A stretch of DNA of 21,295 bases from a virus. How positions within the stretch are numbered: position 1 is the stretch's first letter; each line of letters starts with the position of its first letter. The stretch is from the IMG/VR virus record IMGVR_UViG_3300018481_000085, positions 1 to 21,295 of that record; one strand, given 5' to 3'. Both the position numbers and the translations under genes were made by a program. Positions 294-21,295 of the stretch are shown one piece after another. The notes below the pieces were generated by a model. That model did no database searches. It was given only the letters and a program-made list of their open reading frames with translations, and was not told where the DNA came from.

Positions 294-1484
294 TCATGAG
301 GTGTAGAGGCTCACCTTGCCACCATACGGCGGGCGCAGCGCATCGGTCGCTTGGCTGGTCGCAGTCACGGCCCACAGGACCGGGCAAGCCGGGTCCGTTC
401 CCCACGATGAGGTTTGCCCGTCCGTGACAAAGACCATGGCCGCATAGTCACGCGTCGCGGCCATCGCCATGGCGGACTTGAAGTCGGTTCCACCACCATT
501 GGCACCATGGAACGCGATGGTTTGCCCGGCATCAAAGCGCTCAACGCGCTGAACCTTGGTATCGACGTAGACCAGTTCGATTGCGTCGCACGCGCCGTCA
601 TCCAGCGCGGCTTGCGCTTCGCTCAACGCGGCCCTGTTGGCGCGCGTGTCCATTGACCCGGACACGTCGATAAACCAGCCAATCAGGCTTGGCCTGATCG
701 GCAGTTCATCGGGCAAGGCCAGCCCATGGACAACGCCGCGACGATCAAGGGCGGACCAACTTTCTTCGCGGCTGCCCAAGTCATCAATGAAGGCGCGCAG
801 GATGGGACGCCAATCGACCATGGGTGAGGCTAGGCGCGTTTTGATGCTTTGAAGGCTAGCCGGGATGGTTCCCGGCTCCGCGCCAAACGTGGCAGCCTTC
901 CGGGCGGACCCCAGCGCCTGCTGCGTACGCTCAGCCCATGCTTCCGCATGATCCTCCGCTTCCTTGCCAGCCAATGGCTGCCCGGCGTCATCGGACGGCG
1001 CGCGCATCTCATCGCTGCCGGGCTGGTGTGGTTCCGGCCGGCCCTGATCCTTGGCCTGATCATTCTCACGCTGGATCACGTGAAAAATTTGTTCGGCAGA
1101 TAAACCGTCGAAACGCCAGTCCAAGCACACGTCATCGGGCAGCGTGAAACCAGCCTTCACAAGGTCAAGGTTCAACTCATAGTCGGCAGCCATATTCCAG
1201 AGATTGGCGTCACGACCAGCCATGCGCCGGAAGTGATCCAGCGCGGGATGGCTCACCTCGTGAGCGATGGTGCCGATGCATTCCGCTTCGCTGATCGTCA
1301 GTACCCAAGCCGGATTGTAGAAAATTGCCCGGCCATCGGTGGCCATGCGCTCACACGTGTCGTCCGGCACCATCGCAAGCGACTGGCTCAGGATGCACCA
1401 GAATGCATGGCGCGGGTCATTGAGCATGACGCGGCGCGCACGAGAAACCCGTACGCTCGCATCGGTGATCTTTTCCCAAATCAT
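294..1484 (-). CDS. vWA-domain protein with HExxH metallopeptidase-like N-terminus
   Basis: 396 aa. The N-terminal half has HEVSHPALDH at residues 75-84 (HExxH with a further His) followed by NMAADYELN (97-105). This is the pattern of the putative metallopeptidase domain that precedes vWA-like domains in the DUF2201 type family. A charged Gln/Glu-rich linker spans about 138-200. The C-terminal vWA-like domain carries the MIDAS start DVSGS at 273-277, then a GGGTDF motif and VTDG, all expected metal-ion ligands. These families are known to pair with MoxR ATPases as chaperone or metal-insertion machines (compare CobS/CobT). The gene starts 4 nt after the moxR stop, with a GGGAT ribosome site inside the end of moxR, so coupling is likely. 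Whether it cleaves peptides, handles metal or remodels a protein is not shown. Identification is firm at domain level only. Confidence 0.85.
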   Translation of the reverse strand: MIWEKITDASVRVSRARRVMLNDPRHAFWCILSQSLAMVPDDTCERMATDGRAIFYNPAWVLTISEAECIGTIAHEVSHPALDHFRRMAGRDANLWNMAADYELNLDLVKAGFTLPDDVCLDWRFDGLSAEQIFHVIQRENDQAKDQGRPEPHQPGSDEMRAPSDDAGQPLAGKEAEDHAEAWAERTQQALGSARKAATFGAEPGTIPASLQSIKTRLASPMVDWRPILRAFIDDLGSREESWSALDRRGVVHGLALPDELPIRPSLIGWFIDVSGSMDTRANRAALSEAQAALDDGACDAIELVYVDTKVQRVERFDAGQTIAFHGANGGGTDFKSAMAMAATRDYAAMVFVTDGQTSSWGTDPACPVLWAVTATSQATDALRPPYGGKVSLYTS

Positions 1485-1488
1485 AGGA

Positions 1489-2526
1489 CTATATCCCTGT
1501 GTTCGATTGCGTGATCAGGTAAGACACGTGCTCAGGCGTCTCGCGGAAAGCGCCATCCTTTGCACATGCCATGGACCAGAATGAAGCACGGTAGAGCGGG
1601 TCCATGCGATTGATGTAGCTCACAACGGCCGTGAGGTTCCCCATGGTCACGCGCGACACCAGCGCCACGGTAAGTGCATAGTTCACGCTCGGCTCACGAT
1701 GGATCACTGCGCCCATCGGGTCCGCCAATATGGCGTTGAGGTCCGGCAGCAAACGCCATGATGCGAGGAACGCCATGAAACCTTCCGTCCATGTGTCCCC
1801 AACATTGTGGGAGATGTTGCGGCGCAGTTCAGCGTCAGAAAGGCCAAGCGCAGGGTCCAGAAGCTTGGCAGCGCGCGCCAAGCTGCGGGGCCGCAGCACG
1901 GCGATTGCGTCGCTGGTGGCATGGTCCGCACCATCAAAGATCGCTGCAAGGCCAGCCGTTGCAGAGGCCTGATTGCATGACGTGACATAGGCCACGACCT
2001 CCGGCGCGACACCAGCGCCAACAGCCCATGACAGCCACGAGGCCACGTCAGGAATGATCTCAACGATGGTGAAACGGTTAGCCAATGCGCGGCTGAATTT
2101 CTGTGCGGCGGACCGATCAGCCATCGTGTTACCAGCCGCAACAATGTGCCAACCCATTGGCAGCACATAGTCACCTAGGCAACGATCCAGCACCAACTGG
2201 TACAGCGCTGCCTGAACTGCGAGCGACGCATTGGACAGTTCATCAAGGAAGATGATCCCCACGGGTCCATCGCGCTCAACGCGCGGCAGCCAATCGGGCA
2301 GAAAGTCTTTGATCAGGCCGGTCTTTTCGTCCGGCATTGGCAGGCGGGTATCAATCGCGGCCATTTGCGACGCACGTTTGTCGATGACCGGAAGGCCAAG
2401 CTTGGCCGCGACTTGCCGCACAACATCGGACTTACCGACACCATACGGACCGATGACCATGGCTGCATTGCCAACCCTGATTGCTATCTCAAGATCGCGC
2501 GCTGCCTGTGTGACTGTGACTTGCAT
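1489..2526 (-). CDS. MoxR-type AAA+ ATPase
   Basis: 345 aa from the chosen start. Walker A is GPYGVGKS at residues 26-33 and Walker B is GIIFLDE at 90-96. An AAGNTMADR stretch follows in the sensor-1 position, then RALANRF, the usual arginine-finger region of MoxR/CobS-like ATPases. The open frame continues upstream to 2880, but that extension is low-complexity, Arg-rich and antisense to nothing recognisable. ATG at 2526 is chosen because AGGAG (2534-2538) lies 7 nt upstream; the ATG at 2532 would leave only one base. MoxR ATPases work as hexamers with a vWA partner, here the next gene downstream. Two hairpins precede the ribosome site. The target is unknown. Confidence 0.88.
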   Translation of the reverse strand: MQVTVTQAARDLEIAIRVGNAAMVIGPYGVGKSDVVRQVAAKLGLPVIDKRASQMAAIDTRLPMPDEKTGLIKDFLPDWLPRVERDGPVGIIFLDELSNASLAVQAALYQLVLDRCLGDYVLPMGWHIVAAGNTMADRSAAQKFSRALANRFTIVEIIPDVASWLSWAVGAGVAPEVVAYVTSCNQASATAGLAAIFDGADHATSDAIAVLRPRSLARAAKLLDPALGLSDAELRRNISHNVGDTWTEGFMAFLASWRLLPDLNAILADPMGAVIHREPSVNYALTVALVSRVTMGNLTAVVSYINRMDPLYRASFWSMACAKDGAFRETPEHVSYLITQSNTGI

Positions 2527-2543
2527 TTTCATTCTCCTGATTT

Positions 2544-2588
2544 GCAGGGCCAATCCCTGCCCGATGCCGGCCAATCGCTTGGCCGGCA
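2544..2588 (-). promoter_or_regulatory. Tandem stable hairpins in the moxR leader
   Basis: On the minus strand a perfect 10-bp stem (2579-2588 with 2565-2574) closes a GCGA loop, a GNRA tetraloop. Six bases later a perfect 6-bp stem (2555-2560 with 2544-2549) follows. The second ends 5 nt before the AGGAG of moxR. No U-run follows either stem, so mRNA processing, stability or control of moxR translation fits better than termination. Confidence 0.6.
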
Positions 2589-2606
2589 CTAGGGCAATGA
2601 TCGTTG

Positions 2607-2774
2607 CTAGAAGGTGCCTAGGGCGCGCAGGGATGGCCCTAGGTGCGCGTAAACGTATCCGGCAGCGATGATGATGCTGACGAGGATTGCCGCCGTGCCT
2701 AGGGCCAAGCTGGCGATATCGTCGGCATGCATGCGAGCGCGACGGGAACGGCGTGACTTGAGACGCGTTGCCAT
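2607..2774 (-). CDS. Small single-pass membrane protein (55 aa)
   Basis: 55 aa, shorter than most gene finders keep. The N-terminus is strongly basic (KSRRSRRAR, residues 6-14). One hydrophobic segment, about 23-43 (LALGTAAILVSIIIAAGYVYA), should span the inner membrane, with the basic end in the cytoplasm by the positive-inside rule. ATG at 2774 has AGGTG five bases upstream. It starts 8 nt after the stop of the DUF3150-like gene and lies 80 nt before moxR, in the same direction, so it is part of the operon. It could anchor the ATPase/vWA pair to the membrane; that is inference. A holin-like role is possible but there is only one segment and no lysis neighbour. Confidence 0.68.
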   Translation of the reverse strand: MATRLKSRRSRRARMHADDIASLALGTAAILVSIIIAAGYVYAHLGPSLRALGTF

Positions 2775-2782
2775 GGTTGCAC

Positions 2783-3670
2783 CTATGCCATGAAATCGGA
2801 AACGGCCGCGACCACAGCCGCCGCCTGAGCCGCGACGGTCTGGCGAATGTTGTCGGACGCGCGCAGCGTCTCCGCGTCATGCGTCACCAGCGCCTGCATC
2901 TGGATGACCAGATCATTGATGCGCGCATCGCCGGTAAAATTCAGGCCGGGCATGAGGTCCACAAGGTCACGAATATTTTCGACCAAGCTGTCTCTGAATA
3001 TCCCTTCCGTCCGGTCGCCCAGCTTGGCTGCCGGCTTGTAGGCACCCAGCTTGTCAACCATGGCGGATACCTTGTCGTGAACGCGCTCAAACACGTCACG
3101 CACGGCATTGTTGGCGCTTTCGACCAGTCGCGCCTCGATACCGGCTTTGATGCGCTCAACGGCCGCTTGGCCAACATCAACGCGGAAGTCCGATGAGGTC
3201 GGAACCGGCATGAACTCACAACGCCATCCGAACTTGGCCCTGATCCGGCTTTCCTTCGGATAGTCGTTTTCATTGAACAACTGGCCCAGCCCGGCATAGG
3301 ACGCACGCGCCTGATCGATGTAGCGGGGGTAGTTGGCGCAGAAGGTATCGACCAATGGCCAAAATTCGCGCTCAAACGTCTCCATCTCAGAAACGTATGA
3401 GCCATGCATTTTGGCTGCGAGCATGCGCGGCCCGGCGTCAAGCCATGGGGAAGTGAGTTCAACGTGTCGGGCGCGCGCGCGTGAAACACATGTACCGATC
3501 AGGCTGTGCGTGTCCGACAGAATGAGTTTCTTTGAGACGTGAGACGCCTTGCCATTGGCGCAGGCGTTTTCGTTGACAGTCTGAGACATGGCCTTGTCAA
3601 TCTTGCGCGCAGTCCACTGGGATGCGCTGAAATCGACAAGCATAGCGACTGAGGCGAGGTGATTTGTCAT
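2783..3670 (-). CDS. DUF3150-like protein of the MoxR-vWA cassette
   Basis: 295 aa from ATG at 3670; the frame stays open to 3712, but no ribosome site precedes that codon, while TAGGAT lies about 10 nt before 3670. The N-terminus (LVDFSASQWTARKIDK) and the later helical region with FEREFWPLVDTFCANYP resemble the DUF3150 family, known to sit beside CobS/MoxR-like ATPases and CobT/vWA proteins in phages and plasmids. The rest looks mostly alpha-helical, with a coiled-coil-like tail ending in Ala/Val repeats (about 270-290). No catalytic motif is visible. It is the first gene of the leftward operon. It may be an adaptor or substrate of the ATPase; this is inferred from neighbourhood only. Confidence 0.72.
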   Translation of the reverse strand: MTNHLASVAMLVDFSASQWTARKIDKAMSQTVNENACANGKASHVSKKLILSDTHSLIGTCVSRARARHVELTSPWLDAGPRMLAAKMHGSYVSEMETFEREFWPLVDTFCANYPRYIDQARASYAGLGQLFNENDYPKESRIRAKFGWRCEFMPVPTSSDFRVDVGQAAVERIKAGIEARLVESANNAVRDVFERVHDKVSAMVDKLGAYKPAAKLGDRTEGIFRDSLVENIRDLVDLMPGLNFTGDARINDLVIQMQALVTHDAETLRASDNIRQTVAAQAAAVVAAVSDFMA

Positions 3671-3691
3671 GTTGAATATAATCCTATCTAT

Positions 3692-3707
3692 GCGCCACCA
3701 TTGGCGC
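3692..3707. repeat. Operator-like inverted repeat upstream of DUF3150-like gene
   Basis: GCGCCA (3692-3697) and TGGCGC (3702-3707) are perfect reverse complements around a 4-nt centre, between the candidate promoter and the ribosome site of the first leftward gene. It may be a repressor site or a leader hairpin. Confidence 0.4.
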
Positions 3708-3730
3708 GACAAGAAATTAGGCCATTGACC

Positions 3731-14097: not shown

Positions 14098-14691
14098 ATG
14101 CCAACCATGAAGGACGTTTGTAACCTTGGGTTGGGCAAGTTGGGCGCGAGCCGCGTCAATAACCTGTCGCCGCCAATCAGTACGCTGGAAACCAAGTGTG
14201 CAGCAGAGTATGCACAGTGGAAAGCCAGCGAACTGAAAAAGCGGCGCTGGACTTTCGCCACGGCACTGGTCAGGCTGACAGCACTGTCAGCCCCAGTGAC
14301 CAACCCTATCGATGGGCGTGGCTACCAGTACAATGTGCCGGGTGATATGCTCAGGCCATTACGGCCGAAGAATTGCACATGGGTACAGCGTGGGCAGTTC
14401 CTATATGACCATGGCAACCAGATACTCTTGGAATACATCAGGAACGTACCTGACAACGAGTTGACTGATCCCTGCTTTATCGATGTGCTGGCCTGTCGGG
14501 TCGCCTACGAGTGTGGCGAGTTGGCCACCCAGTCACCGGGCAAGAAGCGCGAAGCCGCCGGCATGCTGGCGACTGCCGCCGACGAAGCCGGCCGGCTGAA
14601 CGCCTTCACGCTTGATCCGCACGAAACCGGGGGAGACGACAAAGCCTATACGTGGGATATCGCCCGGCATAGCCCATTCCTGAGTGGCTGA
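14098..14691 (+). CDS. Tail tubular protein A (T7 gp11-like adaptor)
   Basis: 197 aa, almost the same as T7 gp11 (196). The N-terminus (VCNLGLGKLGASRVNNLSPP) and the segment ELKKRRWTFATALVRLTAL (about 43-61) match the pattern of this family, as do the YQYNVPGDMLRPLRP stretch and the LLEYIRNVPDNELTDPCFIDVLACRVAYE core. It binds under the portal as a dodecamer and receives the nozzle protein. TAGGAG lies 10 nt before the ATG; a second ATG at 14107 is possible. The stop overlaps the nozzle gene start as TGATG. Confidence 0.88.
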   Translation: MPTMKDVCNLGLGKLGASRVNNLSPPISTLETKCAAEYAQWKASELKKRRWTFATALVRLTALSAPVTNPIDGRGYQYNVPGDMLRPLRPKNCTWVQRGQFLYDHGNQILLEYIRNVPDNELTDPCFIDVLACRVAYECGELATQSPGKKREAAGMLATAADEAGRLNAFTLDPHETGGDDKAYTWDIARHSPFLSG

Positions 14692-17600
14692 TGGCCAAGG
14701 TATCGCCGGCCCAGAACGTCTTTGAGGGAGAGTTAAGCCCGCTGGCGGCGGGCCGCACCGACATTGAGCGGTACGGGCGCGGTATGCGCTTCATGAAGAA
14801 CATGGTGGCCTGCCGTACCGGGCCAGCCATCAGCCGGTCTGGCACCTACTTTGAGCAGCGGTGCATGGACCCGGCTTTTCCCAGCAAGCTGTTACCCTTT
14901 GAGTACAATGACGAAGAAACGCTGATGATGGAGTTTGGCCATTATAAGATGCGTTTCCACTATGAGTATAATGGCATTGCAGCCCATCGGGAAATTGGCA
15001 TTACACAGGTTTTGACCACTTCGCCTTTTACGATTGTTGCGACGGGCCATGACTGGGCAATAGGCGAGAGCATAGTTTTCAAAGGCTTTGCCGGCACGTA
15101 TAATGTCAACGGTGTGATTGCTAAAATCGCAGCGATTAGCGGCGATAACATAACCACGGATTATATCGCTAACGGTACTCCTGCCGTATTGCCCGGCGGC
15201 GCAGTTGCCGCCGTGGTCTACGAAGTTGTCATGCCCTATCATCGTGATGATGTGCAGTTTTTGCGCATCGTGCAAGAGCTAAATGTCTGTTACCTGTTTT
15301 GTGGTAAAGCCGATGGTAAGGAGTATAGGCCATACACATTAAAGCGCTATGATACCTTTGATTGGCGGCTGTCTGTCATAGAGATGAAAGACGGGCCGTA
15401 TATGGATATCAATACGACCACGACATATTTGATACCACTGAGCAAGGGTACATGGGTGCCCGACATGACCAGTAATACCACGCCAACGGGCGTGGCTTCA
15501 GCCAGTTCTGCCGTGGCTAACCATGAGGCATGGAAGGCATTTGACGGCGATCTTGACAGCTTTTGGGAAGCCAATGAAAGTCAGGAAGGCTGGCTGGAGT
15601 ATTCGTTTGAGACAACGTTTGTCAACGCCATACCAAACATGACCGGGCCATCGACTGGTGGCGCAACGATTTCGGCGTCATCGAATGCTTCGGGCGACGA
15701 TCCGTGGAAGGCGGGGGACCGGGACGGCAATACCGATTGGCGATCCGGCGGGACATTGCCCCAGTGGTGGCAGATCGATCTGGGTGCGGCACAGACGATT
15801 GGGGTGTATTCCATACGTGCCAGCAAGAACAAGAATGAGTTCGCGCCAGAGGACTGGGTATTACAAGGCAGTGCTGCGGCTGGTGGTCCGTGGACGACAT
15901 TGGACACGCGAACGGGTTTTCAGTGGGATAGCGGACAGAGCCGACAGTTCACTGTGCAAGCGCCTGCGTCGTTTCGTTATCACCGGATCACAGTGACTAA
16001 TGTCAAGCGCAAGACAATCACAGAGATCATTCCCGCACATGGCACAAAAGGCAAGAAGGGCTATCAGCCAAAGCAAACCGTCACTACCAAGACCGACAAT
16101 CGTGCCGGATTTTCCGAAGTTCGTATGTCATATGGCGTAGGCATACCGCGAGCGGTCGATGGCTATGCAATTTATCTAGGCCGGAAGGCCAAAGGCAAGA
16201 ACATCAAGGACCACGCACCACGTACATGGTATTTTGAGGCATGGGATGGTGACGATTGGCGGCTTTTGGACAGTCAACAGGACTTTGAGGACTGGAACCA
16301 ATACCGGTCGCCCTATTTTGAACTGAAAAACGACGAAGCCTATTTGAAGTATCGCATTCGCATCAAAGAAGTCTTTGAGGAAGGCGATACCAACCCACGT
16401 ATTGGCCGTTTAACCCTGTCATCGCCGGATGCACCAGCGGTTACTCTGCAAGCTACCAGTAAACTAGGCATTAACGACGACCGTGGCTTTCTGATCACCG
16501 ACGTTGGCCGGCTGATACGCATCAAAGATGCCGATAACACGTGGCGCTGGGCAACAGTTACTGCCGTAACCAACGAAACCATCATCACCATCAGCGTCGC
16601 CGGCAAAGACCCGCTGGTTTTGAACCAGCAGATCAAATTTTGGCGGCTGGGCCTGTGGTCGGACACCACCGGCTGGCCAAACTGCGGGGTTTTGCACGAA
16701 GACCGGCTGTTTTGTGCCGGCGCGCACGGCTTTCCCGATCATGTCGTGGCCTCGCGCACCGGGCAGCACACCTATTTCCAGCATGTTGGCCCGGATGACG
16801 TGGTGCTGGACGACCACGGCATGGTGCTGCGCTGTAACAGCCGGTACATGAGCCGTATCGTCTGGCTGAAGGCGTCGGAGGAAGCCCTACGCGTCGGAAC
16901 CGGGGTCAACGAGTTCGTTCTGTCCACGCCGGTCGATGAAGCGCTGAATGCGCGCAACGCCAAGATCAGGCAGACGACGCGGCGCGGTAGCGCCAACCAC
17001 GAGCCGGCCGTGGTCGATACCGACGTGATATTTATCCAGAAATCCGGTCGTGCGCTCTACGCCAACACCTACGCCCTCGCGCAATCGGGTGAAGCAGCGA
17101 AGTACGAGAGCACGCTCATGTCAAAACTGGGCGCGCATCTGCTTGAGCCGAAAGTCGTGCAAGTGGTTTACCAGCAGGAGCCGCATAGCGTCATTTGGGG
17201 CCGACGCGAAGACGGTTCCGTCGTTGCGATGACGTATAGTAACGACGACGACATATTCGGCGGGCATAGACACGACTTTTCGGCTACCATCAAAGACCTA
17301 GCGGTACTGTCTAGTCCCACTGACAAGCAAGATAGTCTGTGGATGGTAGCAATGCGTGTCGTTCAAGGCCAGACTGTTCATTACATAGAACGTATGTATC
17401 GGTTTTGGGATTTTGGCGATATCTTGCAGGAAGACGCAACGTATGTGGATAGTGCGTTGCGCTACTACGGCACGACACCAACCAATATACTTTATGGCTT
17501 GCGACACGCGGAAGGTAAGTATCTTGATGTGCTGGCTGATAACATTCCCTACAAGGGACTGGGACCAGTGACCAACGGCATGCTTCAGCTTGAGCGACCG

Positions 17601-17978
17601 GCTTATTGGGCGGTCTGCGGTATAGGCTTTACTAGCGAAGGCGAGATCATCGCGCCGGACGTGGGAGCCGAAGACGGTACGGCGCAGGGCAAGAGCAAAC
17701 GCCCGCACAGCGTGGTGCTCAACCTGTGGGAAACCGCCAGAGGCGAGGTCGGGCGCTGGGACGAAGACCACGGCGAGCTAATGTGGACGCCGGTCGAGTA
17801 CAATTATCCACAGGATGCCAACGTGCCGGAAGTGACGTTACGCACAGTGCAGAGCAAGACGACGGTGCTGCCCGGCGGCTACGGCACCTTGGGAACCGTA
17901 CGGTTCCGGCAGACGGAGCCGTTGCCGTTCAATCTGGTGGCACTTTATCCACAGATGTACGTGGAGGACGAACGCTGA
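14691..17978 (+). CDS. Tail tubular protein B / nozzle (T7 gp12-like) with inserted discoidin-like domains
   Basis: 1095 aa, about 300 longer than T7 gp12 (794). The first 250 residues (FEGELSPLAAGRTDIERYGRGMRFMKNMVACRTGPAISRSGT and on) and the beta-propeller-like part after about 600 (GWPNCGVLHEDRLFCAGAH, VGTGVNEFVLS) are typical of the nozzle protein that ends the tail tube. Between them, about 265-580, are discoidin-like sequences: residues 266-306 read as the first half of one (EAWKAFDGDLDSFWEA), 320-438 as a complete one (WWQIDLGAAQTIGVYSIRAS, WVLQGSAAAGGPW, FRYHRITVTNV), and 485-580 as a second half (VDGYAIYLGRK, TWYFEAWDGDDWRLLD, YLKYRIRIKEV). Such folds usually bind carbohydrate, so surface glycan contact is inferred. 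The stop TGA overlaps a CTG used by the next gene. Confidence 0.9.
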   Translation: MAKVSPAQNVFEGELSPLAAGRTDIERYGRGMRFMKNMVACRTGPAISRSGTYFEQRCMDPAFPSKLLPFEYNDEETLMMEFGHYKMRFHYEYNGIAAHREIGITQVLTTSPFTIVATGHDWAIGESIVFKGFAGTYNVNGVIAKIAAISGDNITTDYIANGTPAVLPGGAVAAVVYEVVMPYHRDDVQFLRIVQELNVCYLFCGKADGKEYRPYTLKRYDTFDWRLSVIEMKDGPYMDINTTTTYLIPLSKGTWVPDMTSNTTPTGVASASSAVANHEAWKAFDGDLDSFWEANESQEGWLEYSFETTFVNAIPNMTGPSTGGATISASSNASGDDPWKAGDRDGNTDWRSGGTLPQWWQIDLGAAQTIGVYSIRASKNKNEFAPEDWVLQGSAAAGGPWTTLDTRTGFQWDSGQSRQFTVQAPASFRYHRITVTNVKRKTITEIIPAHGTKGKKGYQPKQTVTTKTDNRAGFSEVRMSYGVGIPRAVDGYAIYLGRKAKGKNIKDHAPRTWYFEAWDGDDWRLLDSQQDFEDWNQYRSPYFELKNDEAYLKYRIRIKEVFEEGDTNPRIGRLTLSSPDAPAVTLQATSKLGINDDRGFLITDVGRLIRIKDADNTWRWATVTAVTNETIITISVAGKDPLVLNQQIKFWRLGLWSDTTGWPNCGVLHEDRLFCAGAHGFPDHVVASRTGQHTYFQHVGPDDVVLDDHGMVLRCNSRYMSRIVWLKASEEALRVGTGVNEFVLSTPVDEALNARNAKIRQTTRRGSANHEPAVVDTDVIFIQKSGRALYANTYALAQSGEAAKYESTLMSKLGAHLLEPKVVQVVYQQEPHSVIWGRREDGSVVAMTYSNDDDIFGGHRHDFSATIKDLAVLSSPTDKQDSLWMVAMRVVQGQTVHYIERMYRFWDFGDILQEDATYVDSALRYYGTTPTNILYGLRHAEGKYLDVLADNIPYKGLGPVTNGMLQLERPAYWAVCGIGFTSEGEIIAPDVGAEDGTAQGKSKRPHSVVLNLWETARGEVGRWDEDHGELMWTPVEYNYPQDANVPEVTLRTVQSKTTVLPGGYGTLGTVRFRQTEPLPFNLVALYPQMYVEDER

Positions 17979-18406
17979 TCCGGTTCGAGCCATGCAAGGC
18001 TGACCATATCGATCTGATCGACGCACAGGCTGACCAGCTAAGCGAACGGTCCTTCAATGCGCTGGTGACGGAAGAGCTTGTAGAAAACTCGTTGGCCCTG
18101 TCCTGCTGGATCGATGACCAGTGCGTCGGAGCCGGCGGTCTGCGTCCGATCTGGCACGGCCGGGCAGCGGCTTGGGCCTTGCTCAGCCGGAACGCCGGCC
18201 CCGCCATGCTGGCGATCACACGCAAGCTGAGCTTCGTTCTGGCTACGATGCCCGCCAATCGCATAGAGATGACCGTCCGCGCGAATTTCCTGCCGGGGTG
18301 CCGGTTGGCAGCCTTTTTGGGCTTCCGGCTTGAGACGCCCGTCCCCATGCGGTTTTTCTTCCCCGACGGCGAAGACGCGTTCCTGTTTGCGCGGGTGCGC
18401 CCATGA
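17975..18406 (+). CDS. GNAT-like protein at the T7 gp13 position (probable CTG start)
   Basis: 143 aa from CTG at 17975. It contains the acetyltransferase-like run AGGLRPIWHGRAAAWALLS (about 48-66), then MLAITRKLSFVLATMPANRIEMTVRANFLPGCRLAAFLGFRLE, which matches the C-terminal half of GNAT folds and resembles the DUF2833 group that includes T7 gp13 (138 aa). There is no ATG/GTG/TTG near the expected N-terminus; the frame is open upstream inside the nozzle gene. CTG overlaps the TGA stop (CTGA, like the ATGA overlaps elsewhere) and GGAGG lies 7 nt upstream, so a CUG start is the best reading. Catalytic activity is uncertain; in T7 the protein is an assembly/internal component. Confidence 0.8.
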   Translation: MIRFEPCKADHIDLIDAQADQLSERSFNALVTEELVENSLALSCWIDDQCVGAGGLRPIWHGRAAAWALLSRNAGPAMLAITRKLSFVLATMPANRIEMTVRANFLPGCRLAAFLGFRLETPVPMRFFFPDGEDAFLFARVRP

Positions 18407-18861
18407 CCATGCTGTCGGCTGCCATGCAAGTGGTGGGTGGCGCGGTCGGTGCCATGGGAGCCATGAAGCAGGCCGAGGCGGAAGCCAAGGCGCAGGAGTA
18501 CAACGCCGCCGTCGCGACGCGTAACCAACGGATCATCAAGCAGCAGACCAAGGAAGCCAAGGTCGATCAGCGGCTGGAGAACAAGCGGCTCTTCTCTGCG
18601 GTCAGGGCGCAGATGGGTGCTAACGGCTACTCGTTCACCGGGTCAGCCTTGGACGTGGCTCTGGATACGGCCAAGGAGCAGAGGCTGGAAGTGAAACGCA
18701 TCGGCTACAAGGGCAAGCTGGCACAGATCGAACAGCGCGACGCGCGGAACCTCGCCTTGATGGGCGCGGATAACGCGCGGTCGGCTGGCCAGCTTAGTGC
18801 CGTGTCGCAGTTGCTAGGCGGGCTTGGCGGCGCGGCCACGACCATAGCGAGGACCGGCTGA
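18403..18861 (+). CDS. Internal virion protein (T7 gp14-like core protein)
   Basis: 152 aa. A hydrophobic, Gly/Ala/Met-rich N-terminus (LSAAMQVVGGAVGAMGAM, about 4-21) is followed by a long helix (QAEAEAKAQEYNAAVATRNQ) and the family-typical ANGYSFTGSALDVALDTAKEQRLEVKRIGYKGKLAQI segment (about 74-110). In T7, gp14 leaves the capsid and makes the outer-membrane part of the DNA-ejection channel; the hydrophobic start fits that. ATGA overlap with the acetyltransferase-like gene and TGATG with the next gene place it in the ejection-protein block. It is shorter than T7 gp14 (196 aa). Confidence 0.85.
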   Translation: MTMLSAAMQVVGGAVGAMGAMKQAEAEAKAQEYNAAVATRNQRIIKQQTKEAKVDQRLENKRLFSAVRAQMGANGYSFTGSALDVALDTAKEQRLEVKRIGYKGKLAQIEQRDARNLALMGADNARSAGQLSAVSQLLGGLGGAATTIARTG

Positions 18862-21295
18862 TGGCCCGTATCCCGACCGTCACGGCAAGGGCCAGCCCAC
18901 TGGCGGGAGCGCCGCAGTCGCAGGCGTCCGGTGCCGACTTTGGCGCGCAGATCGGTCAGGCCGTGCAAGGGCTTGGCAATACCATCCAGAGCATCGGTGG
19001 GCAGTTTGCGGCGATTGGCGCGCAGCGGCAGGCCAGCGCCGATCAGTTGGCCTTCGCCACCGAGATGGCCAATACCAGCTTTGCGCCTGCCTTCAATGAC
19101 ACGGTTGATAACTATCCTGATCCATCTGGTGATGGGCTGATCAAGACAACGGAGGAAACATACGACGCATACGTGAATGACAAGCTGGCCAACACCAAGC
19201 TGACGGGTAAGGCGCTGGCTGATTATAAAGTCCAGCTACAGGAGGAGAAACGGATTTATCTCGCCAAGGCGGCTGAGCAAGAAAGCACGATGCGGCAGAA
19301 CAATGCCGACGTGCAAGCCGTTTCTGGCATGGATAAAATCACCAATGACATACGAAGCAATGGCGCAACCACGGATGCCGAGTTCGATCTTGCCTTCAAG
19401 AAGGGAATGGACTTGCTGACTGCCCAGCCGGGCATGACGGCATTGGGTATCGAGAAAGGCAAGATCAAGCTAAACGAAGACCTGTCGGTAGCTCATTTTG
19501 AAGCCTTGGCCGAAAGCGCGACCACCGAGCTTGAGATCATGGCCTTACAGGACAAGCTTGAGACGGATGTGTGGGCAGATCGTTTCAGCAATGAAAAATA
19601 CGATGCGATGAAGGCGCATCTGAAGTCTACGCGTAACACCATCAAGGAAGGGACGCGTGTAGAGATTTCATCTACGCTGGACAGCCTATCCCGCAGGCTT
19701 GATGCCGGTGGGCTTCTTACCAAGGCAGAAGTTACGGCGGCGCAAGCGCTGGTCCATAGCGCTGGTAACACAGCGACCATTGCGCAAATCGATGCAATGA
19801 CAAGGATAGAAGTCGTCAACCGGGTTAATACCGATTACAAGAATTTATCTGTAACTGAGCGCAAGCGTAAGATCGCTGACGAGATCAGCGGCGTGCCTAG
19901 CGGTGCCAGTGCGCCATCGGGTAGCAGCGGCTCCTATACGCTGACTTATGCCAACCAGAAGAAAACCCGTAACCGGCCGGTGACGCGGCAACTGGGCAAC
20001 CTGTATGAGCAAGCTGCCAAAAGAGCCGGGGTCACTGAAGTCGTGGTGGTGTCGGGCGGGCAAGCGGCCAAGGGCGAACCCGGTGGGCGAACCGGCTCGA
20101 CCCGGCACGACCACGGTCACGCTGGCGATATCCAGTTGAAGGTCAATGGCCGTACGCTGGATATGAGCAAGCCTGAAGACTTGAAGATCATGTACCGCTT
20201 TGTGCAAGAGGCATGGCGGCTGGGTGCGACCGGGATCGGCGCTGGTACGACCTACATGGGTAATCAAACCATCCATGTTGGCTACGGGGCAAAAGCCATT
20301 TGGGGATCAGCCCGTTCCGGCGGCGCTGGACCGCCACGCTGGCTGCAAGAGGCAACCAGCGGCATTCAGGAAGGTGGGCCGATTGTCGATCCCGTCCTGC
20401 AACGGACGGGCACGGCCTACAACGTGCCGGCGACGATACTGGACGGCATGTGGTTCGCGGAGAGTTCGCGCGGAGCCAATCCCGGCACGTCGTCAGCCGG
20501 GGCGCAGGGTCCATTCCAGTTCACGCGTGACACGTGGGCACAATACGGAAACGGCGGCGATATCAATAACTTCGAGGACGCCGCCGACGCTGCCGGGCGC
20601 TATATGCAGGACTTGCTGAAGCAGTTCAATGGCAACATGACCTATGCGCTGATGGCCTATAACTGGGGGCCGGGCAGCGTGCGGACGTGGATCAAGGAAG
20701 GCTCTGATCCCAACGCCATACCAACGGAAACCGCCGATTACGTCGAGAAAGTCATGTCGGCTGGTGGCTCCGGTGGCGGCGGCACGCCGGACTACACCGG
20801 AGCGACAGGCAGTGGTGGCGGTGGCGGTGGCGGCACTCCGTATTTCGATCCCAGTACGGATGCACCAGCGGCTGGCTATTCATACGCACAGCTTACGGCC
20901 ATGGCGGCGGTGGAAAAGCTGAATGACGCCACCGAAAGCGCGCTCAATGCCAACTCGGTGGACTATGAGCGAACACAAGGCAATATCTCGTCAACGTTGA
21001 GCCTGAATAGCTCGCCGGAAGAATGGGCGCAGCGCGATAAAGACATCTCGGCGTCAACTGTCAGGCATGAATTGCAGGCCAATCAGGTCAAGGTGTTTGA
21101 CAGCAATGAGATGGCGGGTATCGCCAACATCATGGCCAGCGGCGACAAGATGCAGAGGGCTGCGCTGCTGTCCGGCATAACCAACATGTCGGCAGCCAAT
21201 CAGGCGTATGCGTGGAAACAGATTGGCGAGACGGACAAGGTAGCTGGTTACGCTGGTTCGATATACAGCGAAGGCAGGAAGGAACTGGCGCTAGA
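18861..21295 (+). CDS. Ejection protein with M15-like peptidase and lytic transglycosylase domains (3' truncated)
   Basis: At least 811 aa, cut by the window edge. Residues 1-350 are largely helical. Around 355-480 an M15-like peptidase pattern appears: SGG, then HxxGxAxD as H416, G419, A421, D423 and a later IHVGYG with H472, the expected zinc ligands. Around 515-610 a lytic transglycosylase follows, with a WFAESS catalytic Glu at 534, the GAQGPFQF motif and the YNWGPGSV motif. Gly-rich linkers (about 635-665) separate a further helical part. T7 gp16 has only the transglycosylase, so this protein seems able to cut both glycan and peptide parts of peptidoglycan during ejection. It starts at the TGATG overlap with the gp14-like gene. 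Confidence 0.88.
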   Translation, partial: MARIPTVTARASPLAGAPQSQASGADFGAQIGQAVQGLGNTIQSIGGQFAAIGAQRQASADQLAFATEMANTSFAPAFNDTVDNYPDPSGDGLIKTTEETYDAYVNDKLANTKLTGKALADYKVQLQEEKRIYLAKAAEQESTMRQNNADVQAVSGMDKITNDIRSNGATTDAEFDLAFKKGMDLLTAQPGMTALGIEKGKIKLNEDLSVAHFEALAESATTELEIMALQDKLETDVWADRFSNEKYDAMKAHLKSTRNTIKEGTRVEISSTLDSLSRRLDAGGLLTKAEVTAAQALVHSAGNTATIAQIDAMTRIEVVNRVNTDYKNLSVTERKRKIADEISGVPSGASAPSGSSGSYTLTYANQKKTRNRPVTRQLGNLYEQAAKRAGVTEVVVVSGGQAAKGEPGGRTGSTRHDHGHAGDIQLKVNGRTLDMSKPEDLKIMYRFVQEAWRLGATGIGAGTTYMGNQTIHVGYGAKAIWGSARSGGAGPPRWLQEATSGIQEGGPIVDPVLQRTGTAYNVPATILDGMWFAESSRGANPGTSSAGAQGPFQFTRDTWAQYGNGGDINNFEDAADAAGRYMQDLLKQFNGNMTYALMAYNWGPGSVRTWIKEGSDPNAIPTETADYVEKVMSAGGSGGGGTPDYTGATGSGGGGGGGTPYFDPSTDAPAAGYSYAQLTAMAAVEKLNDATESALNANSVDYERTQGNISSTLSLNSSPEEWAQRDKDISASTVRHELQANQVKVFDSNEMAGIANIMASGDKMQRAALLSGITNMSAANQAYAWKQIGETDKVAGYAGSIYSEGRKELAL

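Follow-up and report, generated by a model that had tools for sequence, protein, structure and literature searches.

Sequence evidence for a discoidin domain nested within another in the predicted tail tip of a podovirus nozzle

Host recognition by podoviruses is usually credited to fibres and spikes, with the tail nozzle regarded as a channel and gate. Glycan binding is common among discoidin and CBM32 domains, and discoidin folds also serve in protein or lipid binding or in structural roles. Binding modules inserted in tail-tip proteins are already known from lactococcal phages, in which Dit carries inserted carbohydrate-binding modules that promote adsorption (PMC10688798, PMC6669499), as are inserted domains in the muzzle of phicrAss001 (PMC10172136). 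Tail tubular protein B, the nozzle, has been reported to bind a host receptor (PMC7241545) and, in an Acinetobacter phage, to govern host specificity (PMC10904470). The nozzles of T7 and SU10 have their tip domains inserted at propeller blades 2 and 3 or between them (PMC6702177, PMC9509320). No discoidin in a podovirus nozzle, and no nesting of one in another there, came up in the open-access papers searched.

The window, i.e. the whole stretch of 21,295 nucleotides that was analysed (positions 1 to 21,295 of IMG/VR record IMGVR_UViG_3300018481_000085), encodes a 1095-residue protein that is, by homology, a podovirus tail nozzle of the T7 gp12/Carin-1 type. Its residues 1-1093 match phrog_376 (tail protein) in PHROGs at 6.9e-126, and the family profile of the window nozzle matches PDB 8ck1 (Carin-1 Tail Nozzle) at 2.1e-145. 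Foldseek analysis of the full nozzle model returned the nozzles of Carin-1, LME-1, HRP29, T7 and others as top matches; the 17 best matches were phage nozzle or tail chains, although the global superposition was loose. The gene follows directly on an adaptor (phrog_394) and precedes an internal virion protein (phrog_418), which is the T7 gp12-family position. The features under study are the following.

14098..14691, plus strand: adaptor (tail tubular protein A, gp11-like), directly 5' of the nozzle gene; phrog_394 tail protein, 3.2e-27.
14691..17978, plus strand: tail nozzle gene (tail tubular protein B, T7 gp12-like), 1095 residues; phrog_376, 8ck1 and Foldseek.
15435..16436, plus strand: whole inserted cassette in the predicted nozzle-tip segment, residues about 249-582; from alignments, absent from pelagiphage nozzles.
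15450..15611, plus strand: putative first half of the outer discoidin, residues 254-307; F5_F8_type_C at 0.0026 when searched alone, and the adjacent-match test.
15612..16148, plus strand: insert with the inner, complete discoidin, residues 308-486 (domain about 314-485); from Pfam, missing in loci L104, L204, L212 and L217.
16149..16430, plus strand: putative second half of the outer discoidin, residues 487-580; adjacent-match test and uninterrupted homologue in L212/L217.

Elsewhere in the window, a small gene (phrog_4177, 17978-18406) separates the nozzle gene from that of the internal virion protein; this small gene keeps its position in many distant relatives, and the pelagiphage neighbour is annotated as an acetyltransferase. 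A virion protein with a lytic transglycosylase (SLT) domain, at 18861-21293, is cut by the window end. A trio of genes occupies 294-3712 on the minus strand:

294-1484, minus strand: DUF2201 metallopeptidase/VWA-like gene by Pfam; its PHROGs label, HNH endonuclease, does not fit.
1489-2880, minus strand: MoxR-like AAA ATPase gene.
2783-3712, minus strand: weak DUF3150 match.

In the alignment, the window nozzle has some 335 residues between GPYMDINTTTTYLIP and AVTLQATSKLGINDDRGFLITDVGR that pelagiphage nozzles of 668-854 residues lack. The earlier note had put the surplus explained by the nested domains at about 300 residues; the cassette accounts for about 335. It falls in the segment corresponding to the T7/SU10 tip, past the early propeller strands and ahead of the next blade. 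Since this segment corresponds to the T7/SU10 tip insertion site, the cassette is placed at the distal tip by homology, and the solved nozzles together with the descriptions of T7 and SU10 support its location in the predicted nozzle tip. A separate, unrelated insertion of about 70 residues (residues about 107-175, 15009-15215, SPFTIVATGHDWAIGESIVFKGF...NVNG...) occurs early in the nozzle and looks like a small beta domain; it is common to HTVC010P and a Manatee Spring phage and is missing in HTVC203P and others.

The inner domain was readily recognized by Pfam, with F5_F8_type_C matching residues 327-439 at 2e-12 and F5_F8_type_C_2 matching at 5.2e-13. Both matches exceed the gathering scores when the whole protein is searched (47.8 bits versus 28.2 and 49.9 versus 27.8), and the inner segment searched alone gave 43.0 and 47.4 bits with the same two profiles. 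A complete F5/8 type C domain is thus present where the earlier note had put one, at about 320-438, and the domain coordinates given there were right to within a few residues; the refined bounds start the first outer half near 254 (leader VPDMTS...) rather than 266, set the insert at about 308-486 and end the outer domain near 580.

The evidence that the flanking segments belong together comes from searches with the two halves joined or separate. For the window protein, the joined halves scored 19.8 bits to F5/8C in Pfam, and those of the relative L003 scored 26.4 against a gathering cut-off of 27.8. The joined halves of L003 matched F5_F8_type_C_2 at 1.1e-5 with an alignment crossing the junction, and those of L001, another relative, matched the discoidin domains of the GH92 mannosidase PDB 7nsn at 8e-10. 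A tblastn search of 50,697 phage records with the joined L001 halves matched Brevibacillus phage Sundance (37% identity, 7e-12) and Lysinibacillus phage LC76P1 (2e-9), both in one piece. Searched separately, the halves abut on continuous discoidins in Sundance (274-325 and 328-393), LC76P1 (203-258 and 262-328), a Paenibacillus protein (39-93 and 95-170) and phage G gp364 (463-514 and 522-603). In profile-profile comparison, the joined outer domain aligned end-to-end with the inner one (probability 98.4, E 5.9e-15, score 92), versus scores of 56 for the first half alone, 45 for the second alone, 57 for the reversed order and at most 64 for a column-shuffled second half; these controls rule out chance as the origin of the second half's likeness. 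Because the halves abut on continuous domains and the joined profile beats its controls, the outer domain is delimited as about 254-307 plus 487-580, and there is strong evidence at the sequence level that these residues make up, in two halves, a single F5/8 type C (discoidin, CBM32-like) domain. The comparison of nozzle homologues carries still more weight. The earlier note had read 485-580 as a missing second half and the whole as a discoidin nested within a discoidin; the junction-spanning matches bear out both proposals, as do nozzle relatives with an uninterrupted outer domain at the same site.

The nested cassette was found in all of the IMG/VR relatives that have 54-64% identity along their full length, a set that comes to 13 distinct core sequences once identical cores are removed, several loci being the same contigs, and both outer halves are kept together throughout. 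In the nozzle alignment, the site is empty in HTVC010P, HTVC203P and L067 (the pelagiphage nozzles being empty), is occupied by one uninterrupted discoidin in L104, L204, L212 and L217, and is nested in the window, L001 and L039. The discoidins of L212 and L217 carry features of the outer domain, namely DGYTIY/DGYSIY, an LDxQ stretch and the closing R-L stretch. Further single uninterrupted discoidins occupy the nozzle site in L092, L100, L114 and L142, making dozens of viral contigs in all. A first scan of the wider nozzle family gave a discoidin match in 6 of 115 other nozzle ORFs. A directed scan brought in 74 loci. A single-domain match above 30 bits was seen in 67 of the non-family nozzle ORFs, a number that is not a frequency since this sample was selected for the discoidin domain; nearly all of these matches span the full profile length at the same nozzle site. 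In five related records, F5/8C matches were confined to the nozzle gene. The insert searched against genome contigs returned tandem discoidins only (Paenibacillus, Lysinibacillus) and no nested nozzles.

Single-discoidin nozzles, among them L092, L100, L114 and L155, are common in viral contigs with isolate-like IMG identifiers, and these contigs are therefore probably prophages with identifiable hosts. Other long nozzle frames match neither discoidin profile (L145, 999 residues; L106, 936 residues; L219/L222, 1063 residues).

Taken together, we think it likely that the window encodes a nozzle with a discoidin nested in a discoidin at its tip, whose modules grip host envelope glycans weakly and multivalently. 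The protein would form the hexameric tail nozzle of a T7-like podovirus, in which a discoidin/CBM32-like beta-sandwich would have been inserted into the nozzle-tip segment, between propeller parts by homology. A second discoidin would then have entered the first in the loop after the WLEYSFE strand, giving 254-307 plus 487-580. The N- and C-termini of discoidin domains lie close together in space, so the inner domain can occupy a loop without destroying the outer fold. Six nozzle subunits would present up to twelve modules around the distal tail opening, and their weak, multivalent hold on envelope glycans may help to seat or orient the tail tip ahead of ejection, alongside a separate tail fibre. 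The record of the relative L007 encodes a collar-domain tail fibre separate from the nozzle, for which reason the nozzle discoidins would supplement this fibre and not replace it. What the data show is homology, the nested order, relatives with empty and un-nested sites, and the placement in the trees; tip exposure, glycan binding and an effect on adsorption are what we infer for the nozzle discoidins.

It is also conceivable, though we judge it unlikely, that the nesting is real and the discoidins are structural, enlarging or bracing the tip, docking the fibre or shielding the channel without binding glycans. A separate fibre in a relative fits such a role, as does the variation of nozzle tips by insertion for unknown reasons, for example in the phicrAss001 muzzle (PMC10172136). 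However, most F5/8C and CBM32 relatives serve as binding modules, and Foldseek analysis of the region model returned 7nsn, the CBM32s of NanJ and of a chitosanase, neuropilin and factor VIII domains, the best-fitting solved folds including galactose-, GalNAc- and chitosan-binding CBM32s. The adsorption promoted by modules inserted in Dit (PMC10688798) likewise argues for binding.

The origin of the inner domain was interrogated with trees of the nozzle core and of the discoidin domains, the latter built with FastTree (the larger tree) and with IQ-TREE from 42 sequences (the smaller). The nozzle-core tree recovers the nested nozzles as a clade (support 1.0) whose sister group is L212 plus L217 (support 1.0). 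The outer domains group with the L212/L217 discoidins as well (bootstrap 100 in the smaller domain tree, 0.979 in the larger), so that trees of two protein parts agree on L212/L217 as closest; within this group, the smaller tree gives weak support to monophyly of the outer domains (43) and the larger one strong support (0.981). The inner domains group apart in a clade (100) that has gp193 of Erwinia phage RisingSun as its nearest neighbour (78 in the smaller tree, 0.888 in the larger), and the inner profile scores RisingSun at 80 bits versus 65 for the best outer domain. Outer and inner domains do have a leader motif in common and 26% identity over 126 columns, as expected if the inner one were an in-place duplication of the outer, but such a self-insertion appears distinctly improbable given the separate placements in the trees and the preference of the inner profile for RisingSun over any outer domain. 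Because the inner domain falls elsewhere in the tree, nearest to an Erwinia phage protein, it was probably acquired separately rather than by duplication. The simplest history would have a discoidin enter the nozzle tip first and a separate discoidin later enter that one in this lineage; this order of events is firmer than the origin of the inner domain, whose neighbour has moderate support.

Structure prediction with AlphaFold2, the check that the earlier note had named for the packing of the two halves, gave a mean pLDDT of 61 for the insert region (11 sequences) and 68 for the whole nozzle (20 sequences), the latter model falling below 50 at 253-298, in the first outer half, and at 307-333, at the start of the inner domain. 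Predicted elements of the outer domain lie at 300-306, 491-496, 505-508 (helix), 510-518, 523-529, 553-561 and 571-577, and their order is paralleled by the predicted inner strands at 358-363, 370-377, 386-394, 402-407, 430-438 and 473-481. With the halves about 180 residues apart and model confidence low, half A of one protomer might be paired with half C of its hexamer neighbour, completing the outer sandwich across subunits; this seems very unlikely, for the halves are contiguous in one chain in the single-domain relatives, which makes within-chain pairing the ancestral state. A serial arrangement without nesting, in which a degenerate half-domain would be followed by a complete discoidin and then by a beta domain unrelated to it, might draw on the lack of a Pfam F5/8C match to the second half alone and on the low model confidence in the first half (pLDDT below 50), but it is ruled out for practical purposes by second-half matches lying right behind those of the first half in several unrelated proteins, by uninterrupted versions at the same nozzle site and by the joint retention of both halves in nested relatives.

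For the preferred reading, a nested pair of glycan-gripping modules, a broader proposal can be made, on which we are evenly divided: that the podovirus nozzle tip may be a general site for stepwise insertion of carbohydrate-binding domains (empty, single, nested), that the tip may thereby act, independently of the fibres, as a second device for multivalent receptor binding, and that in this lineage a foreign discoidin was captured in the first. The series from empty through single to nested constitutes a clear record of domain-in-domain insertion within one fold, with every intermediate still extant, and where one binding-type domain, or a nested pair, is present at the tip of the nozzle, tip sensing of the cell surface can be put to a direct test. 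The stepwise series suggests that the tail tip may itself take hold of the bacterial surface.

Compared with the known systems, the window nozzle shares with T7 gp12 and the Carin-1 nozzle (8ck1) its family (phrog_376), the gene position after the adaptor and homology on both sides of the insert; those nozzles are without the discoidin, the tip site being empty or holding other small beta domains. The evolved Dit of lactococcal siphophages (PMC6669499, PMC10688798) likewise carries CBMs inside a conserved tail-tip protein, and an aid to adsorption has been shown for it, but the carrier protein is different, and where one insert has two modules they are given as a proximal and a distal one, not as nested. 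The phicrAss001 muzzle (PMC10172136) is a propeller nozzle with large tip insertions, one of them built into the loops of another (the crass domain in IG2), whereas its inserted folds differ from those found here and include no discoidin. Single-discoidin nozzles (L104, L142, L212, L217 and dozens more, with L212/L217 closest) have a homologous outer domain at the same site, but there it is uninterrupted and without the inner domain. Finally, F5/8 type C and CBM32 domains (PF00754, PF22633; 7nsn, 2v72) have the same fold and belong to the same sequence family as both nozzle domains; they are usually continuous and often in tandem, whereas the outer domain of the window nozzle appears to be split by another of its kind.
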